57,300 bases of DNA from Thermoplasmata archaeon. Its GTDB lineage: Archaea > Thermoplasmatota > Thermoplasmata > Halarchaeoplasmatales > Halarchaeoplasmataceae. The notes beneath the pieces were generated by a model, which ran no database searches, was not told where the DNA came from, and saw only the letters and a list, made by a program, of their open reading frames with translations. The stretch covers positions 1-57,300 of the forward strand of contig PUNG01000062.1 in assembly GCA_003551675.1 (NCBI GenBank), read 5' to 3'. The first letter of the stretch is position 1. Every line of letters begins with the position of its first letter. A program made the translations under genes and the position numbers. This document shows, one piece after another, positions 26,343-33,817 of this stretch.

Positions 26343-26702
26343 TCAGAGTGATCCTCGTATTTCATTTATCGATTTCTTCGTCGCCTCTAAAATATCTTCT
26401 ACTTTACCCCCATCCTCGAGCCGCGTCACGAGTATCGCGGACGAACCACTGTCTTGTATCAGTATACGCGTGTTTTCTAATTCTACTAAAACATATTTAA
26501 GGCGATCTTCGAGCTCAGAAGTAGCCGTCTCTGCTGACCCCAGTAATATGGCGGACATGGCAACGTAAGTTTCCCGATGCGCCTTTTTTGGGACCTCTCC
26601 AGCAATGTGCATCCCACTGCGGGAGACGAGAGTGACATCGCTTATGTACTCGGTATTCCCTATTTCTTTTAATATCCTCTCTAAAGAATCTGCTGGAGAC
26701 AT
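26343..26702 (-). CDS. Roadblock/LC7 domain protein
   Basis: LERILKEIGNTEYISDVTLVSRSGMHIAG..YVAMSAILLGSAETATSEL; start reset to MSPADS. Confidence 0.85.
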   Translation of the reverse strand: MSPADSLERILKEIGNTEYISDVTLVSRSGMHIAGEVPKKAHRETYVAMSAILLGSAETATSELEDRLKYVLVELENTRILIQDSGSSAILVTRLEDGGKVEDILEATKKSINEIRGSL

Positions 26703-26947
26703 GATAACCACTGCTTTTTGAAATGCTAACTGGGATGAGAATGACATTACAAGATTATAAACATTTTCCCTCAAATCTAGATACCTTTTTTTGGGACGAC
26801 GCGAAGTAGGAGATCGTAATGCTAGTATGCTGTCCATGGTGTTACCTGAACACTCTGACGGAGATGCGACGTTCGACCTTGCCGTACTACGACGCGTGAT
26901 ATGCGATATGAAAAGATTATTAAAGCAGCAAGTTGTAGAAACTGACG

Positions 26948-29604: not shown

Positions 29605-30804
29605 TCATCCTAAGAATGAGATCATGAGCGGTAGTACTATGAATAGACCTGTCCACGTCAGTATGTTGGAAAATATCCCTACGGATATAGGTCTGATAAG
29701 ATTGTTAGAGAGGAATTCGTTGATGGATCTAGATGACATGAGCTTTTGTACATCTTGGACCTTTGGTTTCCTTACCCTTGCTTCTACATATCCCGCTATC
29801 CATCCTGGGCCTATGAGCGTTAATGACATGAAGGGAGCTAAAAAGAAAGCTGTAAGTACGGATAGTATGTGTCCTTTTCCTATGAGTGCGCCGAGGGAAG
29901 CCATACCTCCCACCGCTACAAACCAATAAAGCCAAGCCCTCCATATGTTGAGCACGTCGGAAAATACGAAAAGATAGGTGGCTAAACTTATGAAAAAAAT
30001 CGGCGACGCGTACCGCAGCAATTTTTTATACACTTTTTTACCCACCACCTCCAAGTGTTCGTGTCCTGAGATGGTACCTTCTTTTTTCTCCTCCCACTTC
30101 AAACTAACCAGCTTATCTTTAACTTGCCGCATATTGCTTTTTGGGACGATAGCTAGGATCTTTCCTTCCTTGGATAAAGAGTAGATCTTTTTCGACATGT
30201 ATTCCAACCTTTCTCTTCTAGCCTTCTCCGCCATATCTGGAGAGAACTTGTCCAAGGTGCTCAAAACCCCTTCCACTATGTCGTCGTGTTTCTCCACCAC
30301 CTCCACGGACTTCGCTTTTTTTTCATCCGAAAAGGAGAGCATGGCTGACTTGAAGTACCAACCGACCCTCAAGGTCTCAACCGGCGACATGTCATGGATC
30401 GCTCTCTTCAGTGTCACGGTGATATCTCTGTCGATAAATTCAACATCTACCTCTAAGAAGTCGGCCACGTCCACCAATTCGGCTATGTGTGTTTCTGGTT
30501 CTAATTTCTTGAACTTTCTTAAGTTCTCTTTCACCGCCTCCACAAAGATCTGATACATCAGGGTCGCAGACTCTCCTCCTTTGTAAGATGAGAGCAAGGG
30601 CCTTTCTAACCACTCCTTTTTCTCCTCCAAAGTTTCGAAGCGCTTCTCACAAAGAGCCAAGCCGATGGATGTAGGTTCATACAGGTTTATAAGTTCGGTC
30701 AGATCCTCTTTGAGGTCCTCGCCTCCGATATAATCAACGCCTACTAGTATTATATCCTCGCGGAACACTTCTACATCCATGGAAACCTCGTTTAAATCCC
30801 TCAC
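29605..30804 (-). CDS. TraB/TIKI-like family membrane protein
   Basis: VGVDYIGGEDLKEDLTELINLYEPTSIGLALCEKRFE; C-terminal TM segments. Confidence 0.7.
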   Translation of the reverse strand: MRDLNEVSMDVEVFREDIILVGVDYIGGEDLKEDLTELINLYEPTSIGLALCEKRFETLEEKKEWLERPLLSSYKGGESATLMYQIFVEAVKENLRKFKKLEPETHIAELVDVADFLEVDVEFIDRDITVTLKRAIHDMSPVETLRVGWYFKSAMLSFSDEKKAKSVEVVEKHDDIVEGVLSTLDKFSPDMAEKARRERLEYMSKKIYSLSKEGKILAIVPKSNMRQVKDKLVSLKWEEKKEGTISGHEHLEVVGKKVYKKLLRYASPIFFISLATYLFVFSDVLNIWRAWLYWFVAVGGMASLGALIGKGHILSVLTAFFLAPFMSLTLIGPGWIAGYVEARVRKPKVQDVQKLMSSRSINEFLSNNLIRPISVGIFSNILTWTGLFIVLPLMISFLG

Positions 30805-31569: not shown

Positions 31570-33228
31570 TTGTCATCGAAAATCGAATTACCCGAAGGAC
31601 TAACGGCACAAGAAGCCGAGGGTTCCGGGGCCCTTCAACCCCTGCTGGACAAGCTGAAGAGGTATTCTTTTCAAGGGTATCTTAAACTGAGAGTCCAGGG
31701 TGAGTGTGAAGGCTATCTCATATTGAAGAAAGGGCTCCCTCGGAATGCGTTATACCATGATCTAGTTGAAGATAAAGTTAAAAAAGGTATCATCGCACTA
31801 CAGGATATCCACACTTTAGATTCAAACGACGACCTCCAGATAACGGTCCACACGGATATAGATGTGGACAAACTCATTGAAGAAGTCGGAGGGAAACTCC
31901 CCGCCCGTGGTTCGAAGAAAAGTACTAAACCCCCTCCTTCAAAAAAATCAAGCGATACGTTTTTACATGCCATCGAACGATCAGGAGATGATCTGAAAGG
32001 CCTGCCGGAAGATATCCTGGAAGAGTTCCCTCCTCGATACACATTTAAAAACTTCATAGTAGGCCCCAATAATAGATTTGCATATGCCGCCGCCTTGTCC
32101 GTGGCGGGAAAACCGGGCCGAAGCTACAATCCTCTTTTCATCACCAGTAAAACCGGGCTGGGAAAAACACACCTTCTTAAAGCCATCGGCCGAACACATC
32201 TTGTGGATGATAAAGATAGAAAAGTCAGGTACGTTGTGACCTCTAGATTGATAGATGAGATAAAAGAGCACAAAAGGAAAAATAAGATGTCCGAACTCAG
32301 AAAGAAATATCTCGATACGGATACATTGCTCTTGGACGGCGTGCAGTCCTTGGCTAATAAAGAACAGATTCAAGAGGATATCTTTAATATATTTTCAGAA
32401 CTCCAGGAGAGGGGAAGCCAGATCGTACTATCGTCGGATCGAATACCAGAGGAGATCCCCGAGATCGAGGAAAAACTCATATCGAGATTTAGGTCGGGTC
32501 TAGTGGTGGATATATTGGCCCCTGGCTACCAGACCAGGAAGATCATCATCGAGCACGCGGCTGAAGAGCAGGGACTAGATCTACCTGAAGATGTGATAAT
32601 TTACATGGCGAAAAAGATCAAAGGTAACGTCAACACCATCAAAGGGGCTTTGAACAGAGTTAGCGCTTACTCGTCGCTCATGGACAAGCCCATCTCTTTG
32701 GAAAACATAGAAGGCGTTCTCACCAGGTATATCGATAAAGAAGTAGGTACCGGCGACGCTCTGAAACCACAATTCAAACCCGGTAGGAGTTACATAATAG
32801 AAGAAGAGACCACTCCTTTGGAGGGCCTAAGACTGGTGGACGAGATGTCGCCGAAAAAAAATAAGTTCATCATATCTAGGATGAATCCTGAACAGATAAA
32901 AGAAGATTACGAACTCATAAACTCCGAGGTAGCATGGCTCACCGATAAAAAGAGCGAGGAGCAGAAAACCGTACCACCGAATTTAGAACGATTGAGTTGG
33001 ATGTTAGAAGAGCAGATCAAAAAGACGGACGTGGTCTTCATCGACGGTTTGGAGTACTTGATCAGCAACACTAATTTTGATGCGGCCATCCAATTCATAA
33101 GACATATCGTGGACGTGGTCTCAGAGAGTGAAACCATCTTCTTGGTCATAGTCAATCCCCGGGCGTTGGAAAGCAAGCAGATCTACATATTGGAGAGAGA
33201 GATGGACGTTATCTCATACATCAGTTAA
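31570..33228 (+). CDS. Chimeric protein: N-terminal DUF2226-like domain, bacterial DnaA-type AAA+ domain, C-terminal DUF835-like domain
   Basis: YTFKNFIVGPNNRFAYAAALSVAGKPGRSYNPLFITSKTGLGKTHLLKAIG..LSSDRIPEEIPEIEEKLISRFRSGLVVDI..VNTIKGALNRVSAYS closely parallels bacterial DnaA domain III; C-term GRSYIIEEETTPLEGLRLVDEMS..DVVFIDGLEYLISN is DUF835-like. TTG start. Confidence 0.88.
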   Translation: MSSKIELPEGLTAQEAEGSGALQPLLDKLKRYSFQGYLKLRVQGECEGYLILKKGLPRNALYHDLVEDKVKKGIIALQDIHTLDSNDDLQITVHTDIDVDKLIEEVGGKLPARGSKKSTKPPPSKKSSDTFLHAIERSGDDLKGLPEDILEEFPPRYTFKNFIVGPNNRFAYAAALSVAGKPGRSYNPLFITSKTGLGKTHLLKAIGRTHLVDDKDRKVRYVVTSRLIDEIKEHKRKNKMSELRKKYLDTDTLLLDGVQSLANKEQIQEDIFNIFSELQERGSQIVLSSDRIPEEIPEIEEKLISRFRSGLVVDILAPGYQTRKIIIEHAAEEQGLDLPEDVIIYMAKKIKGNVNTIKGALNRVSAYSSLMDKPISLENIEGVLTRYIDKEVGTGDALKPQFKPGRSYIIEEETTPLEGLRLVDEMSPKKNKFIISRMNPEQIKEDYELINSEVAWLTDKKSEEQKTVPPNLERLSWMLEEQIKKTDVVFIDGLEYLISNTNFDAAIQFIRHIVDVVSESETIFLVIVNPRALESKQIYILEREMDVISYIS

Positions 33229-33232
33229 AAAA

Positions 33233-33817
33233 TCATTCTTCATCGTTTTCTTCTTTTTTTTCCGGATCGCTGGTCAGATGGTCTAGTAGAGGCCTGCTTC
33301 GAGAAGTTACGTCTATCTGTGGGTCCGGTACATGGAGGTTGACGTTTTCACATCTTCTGCAGATCAGGGCGACGGCATACTTGTCTTCGTGGCCGCAGGA
33401 GGGGCACTGGAAAGTTTTTGGCAGGAGCGTAGAGTCCATGATCTTGATCTCCAGTTGTGATAATCTGCTGCCCAATAGACCGATCTGGGTTGCAAGTTTG
33501 TCTTGCATGGACCTCTTACTTTTTTTTCCCTCGCTTATGATGGATCGATATTTTTGAAATAGGACTTCGGCCTTATCGGCCTCACAAAAACCGGATTTTA
33601 CCATGTCTTCGGGTTTTTCCCCCTCTTCGAACATCCGAAATGCCTTGGACTCTAACGCCAAGGTCTTCAACCGTTTTGACATCTCAGGATCACCCATGAT
33701 GTGCTTTTGTATGTCTTCAAGGGGCTTGTCCAATTCGTCCGCTATCTCCTTTAATGAAAAACCCTTCTCTGAAAGCTCCACAAGCCTTTCCGATTTATCT
33801 TCGATGTCTGTACCCAT
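33233..33817 (-). CDS. HTH-like / C-terminal zinc-ribbon protein, unknown function
   Basis: RLVELSEKGFSLKEIADELDKPLEDIQKHI (HTH-like) and CPSCGHEDKYAVALICRRC. Confidence 0.75.
   Translation of the reverse strand: MGTDIEDKSERLVELSEKGFSLKEIADELDKPLEDIQKHIMGDPEMSKRLKTLALESKAFRMFEEGEKPEDMVKSGFCEADKAEVLFQKYRSIISEGKKSKRSMQDKLATQIGLLGSRLSQLEIKIMDSTLLPKTFQCPSCGHEDKYAVALICRRCENVNLHVPDPQIDVTSRSRPLLDHLTSDPEKKEENDEE

Follow-up and report, generated by a model that had tools for sequence, protein, structure and literature searches.

DnaA, which is universal in bacteria, is regarded as the bacterial initiator, and Orc1/Cdc6 holds this place in archaea. The E. coli gene order is dnaA-dnaN-recF-gyrB. A regulatory precedent is provided by Hda (TIGR03420), a DnaA-type AAA+ protein that is likewise devoid of the HTH domain. 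On the archaeal side, DUF835, termed an iKaiC, occurs in signalling proteins of Methanomicrobia and Thermoplasmata with the architectures REC-DUF835 and REC-PAS-PAS-DUF835 (PMC5847659). Here we describe an archaeal protein in which the DnaA-type AAA+ domain is joined to DUF835. Both domains would already be visible by Pfam-level annotation; new is the DnaA-type AAA+ domain in a new architecture and probably in a new role. No description of an archaeal DnaA or of a DnaA-DUF835 fusion was found in the open literature, with few subscription journals covered by the search. The gene lies in a stretch of 57,300 nucleotides of a Thermoplasmata archaeon (contig PUNG01000062.1), hereafter the window, and the protein is composed as follows.

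31570..33228, plus strand: gene of the N-domain / DnaA domain III / DUF835 protein, an open frame of 552 aa with a TTG start
31585..31899, plus strand: N-terminal domain, about aa 6-110, predicted as b-a-b4-a-b-a and without known family (AlphaFold pLDDT 87, pTM 0.79)
32029..32739, plus strand: DnaA-type AAA+ domain III with lid, about aa 154-390 (Pfam, NCBIfam, phmmer, TM 0.94 to 8bv3)
32767..33225, plus strand: DUF835 (inactive-KaiC-type) domain, about aa 400-552 (Pfam, NCBIfam)

The frame contains no in-frame stop, a GGAGG lies about 12 nt upstream of the TTG, and the same residue context is found at the start in three full congeners. The orthologues of the genus are 60-68% identical over the full length, and their frames are intact or nearly so; in congener L006 a TAG cuts the frame short by two to three residues.

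The preliminary description had seen a bacterial DnaA domain III in this archaeal protein, and the data bear this out. The Bac_DnaA profile (PF00308) matches aa 155-314 with E 2.2e-54 (184 bits against a cut-off of 23 bits), while a phmmer search of the PDB places B. subtilis DnaA (8bv3) over aa 154-378 with E 2.4e-61, the top PDB relatives being the DnaA proteins of B. subtilis (E 2e-61) and T. maritima (E 3e-52). The AlphaFold model of the whole protein has a mean pLDDT of 80, and its AAA+ part superposes on 8bv3 with a TM score of 0.94 (target length) and an rmsd of 1.6 Å over 232 columns, so that the fold, too, is the one the preliminary description expected a model to confirm. The whole of domain III with its lid, Walker A, sensor I and Arg finger is shared with bacterial DnaA at about 45% identity. 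Unlike bacterial DnaA, the protein has neither DnaA_N nor the HTH domain IV, carries an additional N-domain and DUF835, resides in an archaeal host that possesses Orc1/Cdc6, and in the genus of the window shows eroded Walker B and sensor II motifs. No Pfam match to Bac_DnaA_C or DnaA_N (domains IV and I) was found in the 552 aa, and DUF835 occupies the region of the HTH domain, whose absence had been read correctly. The NCBIfam DnaA model (TIGR00362) scores 277.8 bits, below its equivalog cut-off of 343.9, as is expected if domain IV is missing. Since domain IV is lacking and the equivalog cut-off is not reached, the protein is not a DnaA initiator. Identity with Hda was rejected as well: DnaA ranks far above Hda in NCBIfam (277.8 vs 93.9 bits), the N-terminal clamp-binding motif QLxLP was not seen in the translation, and DUF835 is present. 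Orc1/Cdc6 is also an initiator-type AAA+ protein of the same organism, but a distinct one with a Cdc6_C winged helix, which the 552-aa protein does not have.

The C-terminal DUF835, likewise proposed beforehand, is confirmed by a Pfam match over aa 420-545 (E 5.3e-26, 91.5 bits against a gathering score of 33.1) and by ArlH/FlaH-type NCBIfam matches over aa 464-548. DUF835 is a KaiC-like fold without a P-loop. The archaeal signalling proteins share this C-terminal domain; the present protein differs from them in having no receiver or PAS domain and in its fusion to the DnaA AAA+ domain. The domain matches together with the predicted fold therefore establish a bona fide DnaA domain III and DUF835 in one protein and exclude chance.

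The N-terminal domain is conserved across the DnaA-DUF835 family (26 members aligned). Searches of nine family members against Pfam, with E up to 10, returned only noise, as did a profile search against PDB sequences, and a PDB fold search gave nothing below E 0.09. The likeness to DUF2226 suggested earlier is not supported: the N-domain yields no meaningful Pfam E, and a search of 31 related genomes gave no match to DUF2226. PATAN/DUF4388 was rejected on the same grounds, the resemblance being one of pattern only. The N-domain is thus a confidently predicted fold that has no database match.

The motifs of the ATPase centre were located by alignment.

32143..32169, plus strand: Walker A TSKTGLGKT, aa 192-200, intact (K199)
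32326..32340, plus strand: Walker B LLLDG, aa 253-257 (D256, G257), second acidic residue lost
32479..32502, plus strand: box VII ISRFRSGL, aa 304-311, Arg finger R306 retained
32623..32658, plus strand: sensor II GNVNTIKGALNR, Arg replaced by N355

The readings SKTGLGKT, LLLDG, SRF (R306) and NTIKGALNR given in the preliminary description are all correct by this alignment, which comprises 43 archaeal proteins outside the genus of the window, four of the genus and 77 bacterial ones and is numbered after E. coli DnaA. The difference in Walker A is trivial, however: GxGKT has not changed, and family members commonly have Ser where the P-loop would begin with Gly. The Walker A lysine (K178) is universal. 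Without exception, the 43 archaeal proteins outside the genus and the 77 bacterial ones have D235 and D236 in Walker B and R334 in sensor II; the Arg finger R285 is present in 41 of these 43 and in all four genus members. Within the genus D236 has become G in the window's protein and D235 has become E in another member, the four sensor II residues are N, S, R and T, and the R281 position is K or H. The ATPase centre of the window's protein is consequently incomplete, with Walker A and the Arg finger kept, DG in Walker B and N in sensor II. As Walker B and sensor II are invariant outside the genus and decay only within it, these defects are no property of the family; the constraint on the centre in most of its members indicates that ATP turnover matters in these. 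Reduced ATP hydrolysis, as previously put forward, is therefore plausible from the residues for the window's species and genus, but not as a general trait. Relaxed constraint was not seen in the genus either: the identity of the AAA domain is 66%, against 65% and 69% for the other domains. The domain is thus still under constraint, which speaks for its continued function as a nucleotide-binding module. The residues that serve DnaA on single-stranded DNA are another matter. Conservation of R227, an ISM residue, and of the ssDNA residues is poor in the window's family and better elsewhere in the class; in the family R227 is lost, V211 and R245 are mostly replaced, and a K243-equivalent is partly kept. 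With these residues only partly kept, the formation of DnaA-like filaments is not assured.

The captured DnaA-type domain supposed in the preliminary description is not a lone case. In the 61 genomes around the window, 50 match the protein somewhere and 38, from over a dozen families, include the DnaA region by the listed spans. In a separate scan of named genomes, the relatives among the matches listed were MAGs of Thermoplasmata and Methanomassiliicoccales. Of 394 genomes sampled evenly from the phylum, 41 have a DnaA-type AAA+ domain at E 1e-15. One of these is bacterial contamination: G345 (L155 3096-4466), a Thermoplasmatota MAG, contains a complete gammaproteobacterial-type DnaA with DnaA_N, Bac_DnaA and Bac_DnaA_C. 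Outside the class the fusion to DUF835 recurs in G065 and G074, and the DnaA-type AAA+ domain is also found in short proteins. Proteins of 1250-1400 aa from other classes (L150, L152, L157, L163) carry it near the C-terminus, in some cases followed by double zinc ribbons. Since 38 of the 61 genomes carry the protein and the AAA+ domain extends to other classes, the DnaA-DUF835 protein is an old, lineage-wide Thermoplasmatota family and no one-off capture. Reuse outside initiation, the other part of that claim, is probable: domain IV is missing, and a check for Orc1/Cdc6 found two copies in the window's genome.

An unrooted maximum-likelihood analysis of 92 AAA+ domains, 41 from archaea and 51 from bacteria, separates the two groups on one branch with support of 85/87, which 82% of the bootstrap trees recover, and no archaeal sequence nests in a bacterial phylum; this is the comparison with bacterial DnaA that had been proposed. 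A branch of weak support (58/75) has the DUF835-bearing rows on one side, and isolate B1Sed10_107R1 is placed among the window's family. Rooting with E. coli Hda and DnaC was attempted, but both branches were too long and that tree was not used for rooting. It is the presence of DnaA throughout bacteria that suggests a direction for the transfer.

Open reading frames were called around 40 homologues and clustered. What surrounds the gene varies with the lineage, and in the window, where the adjacent genes are divergent or convergent, it lacks a clear operon partner. One of these adjacent genes encodes a zinc-ribbon protein.

33233..33817, minus strand: convergent neighbour, 194 aa, with a C-terminal zinc ribbon, kept beside the DnaA-DUF835 gene in ten genomes of the family

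Through a large part of the class, +1 of the DnaA-type gene is occupied by a convergent zinc-ribbon protein (17 loci). The window's family has another arrangement, in which a zinc-ribbon protein of 148-194 aa adjoins the gene or lies one gene away in ten loci. A KaiC-family ATPase (PF06745, E 5e-34) and a coiled-coil zinc-ribbon protein are nearby in 13 loci; the window's genome has the KaiC-like orthologue (60%) and its coiled-coil partner on another contig. Ras-family GTPases on the same strand accompany the gene in three genomes of the window's family, and the window's genome has Ras GTPases. At L180 (5172-7408), L181 and L182, all from one genus of this family, they stand on either side of a zinc-ribbon protein of 148 aa that comes immediately after the DnaA-DUF835 gene. 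Two genomes outside the class have a RadB-like ATPase at +1 on the same strand. Upstream of the gene lie ThiC (13 loci), gyrB (14 loci) and gyrA (11 loci), the gyrase genes within about 10 kb and over eight families; the gyrBA of the window's genome is elsewhere. At L194 (3684-6965) gyrB is broken by an intein with an HNH motif, and the unusually long gyrA frames of L198 and L200 (1246 and 1334 aa) possibly contain inteins. Farther from the gene in the window, a Roadblock/LC7 protein, a possible GTPase regulator (26343-26837, minus strand), keeps its synteny in five related loci, and a TraB/PrgY family membrane protein (29605-30804, minus strand) has a multi-pass membrane protein and a PHP-like protein next to it, in an order kept in the family.

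What the protein does can be proposed with about even confidence: it would be an ancient switch of the DnaA AAA+ type, no longer tied to origin recognition, and probably an ATP-dependent assembly hub. The AAA+ engine (domain III, lid and Arg finger), separated from domain IV and set between a novel N-domain and DUF835, may act as an ATP-controlled assembly switch whose subunits meet head to tail at the Arg finger, as those of DnaA do. As a pseudo-ATPase, DUF835 could dock on an active RecA-fold partner, KaiC-like here or RadB-like in other families, although this is a guess, because hhalign with shallow alignments found no direct likeness between the family's DUF835 and the neighbouring KaiC-like ATPases. 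Input would come from the N-domain and from the zinc-ribbon or GTPase partners, and the output would be regulatory or spatial rather than the firing of origins. The protein of the window's species probably binds ATP but hydrolyses it poorly, so that it may act there as an ATP-bound scaffold. A regulatory hub is suggested by the recurrence of RecA-fold ATPases, GTPases and zinc-ribbon proteins among the neighbours and by the occurrence of DUF835 in archaeal signalling proteins, and the two Orc1/Cdc6 copies together with the lost DNA-reading domain make an initiator role unlikely.

One would argue that the proximity of gyrase genes, reminiscent of the bacterial dnaA-dnaN-recF-gyrB cluster, points to a regulator of replication or topology, whose AAA+ domain still engages single-stranded DNA, or duplex DNA by way of partners, and ties gyrase or replication to the ATP level in the manner of Hda/DnaA control. 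The RadB-like recombinase ATPase beside the gene in two genomes and the partial retention of the K243-equivalent agree with this. However, the HTH domain is absent, the ssDNA residues are largely replaced in the window's family, Orc1/Cdc6 is present, and in the window's genome gyrBA is not near the gene; we consider such a regulator rather unlikely.

It could also be that the window's copy is a decaying enzyme which no longer needs ATP hydrolysis and whose gene is on its way out, as D257 -> G, the sensor II change R -> N, the loss of sensor II in three of four congeners and the Walker B D -> E change in another might imply. Intact or nearly intact congener frames, an AAA domain that matches the other domains in conservation across the genus, and an intact P-loop and Arg finger all speak against decay, which is therefore improbable. 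The thought of a recent bacterial transfer or of assembly contamination arises naturally with a protein universal in bacteria, and in G345 contamination did occur; yet for the window's gene the fusion and synteny kept in many archaeal genomes and the separate cluster of the archaeal sequences refute it, and we give it hardly any credence.

An older transfer is a different question. For gyrase, published trees set archaea and bacteria apart in two clades and point to one transfer from bacteria (PMC9348778). The DnaA engine might have entered Thermoplasmatota together with gyrBA on a bacterial segment reaching from dnaA to gyrase; having shed the domain that reads DNA, it would then have formed the centre of a new regulatory complex that depends on ATP, made up of DnaA AAA+, pseudo-KaiC and KaiC-RadB ATPase, in places with Ras GTPases. 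The linkage to gyrBA recalls the bacterial order and, with the single gyrase transfer, makes this idea reasonable, but synteny among related genomes is no independent evidence, and we offer the scenario tentatively, as one that is, taken whole, rather unlikely. The family may hold a trace of the entry of bacterial replication-associated genes, gyrase included, into archaea. It is an ancient archaeal family that has the DnaA ATPase machine, with catalytic residues strongly constrained in most lineages, and no DNA reader, and as such it reveals what this machine is capable of without an origin. Nature has thereby provided a separation-of-function protein in which DnaA domain III can be probed alone.
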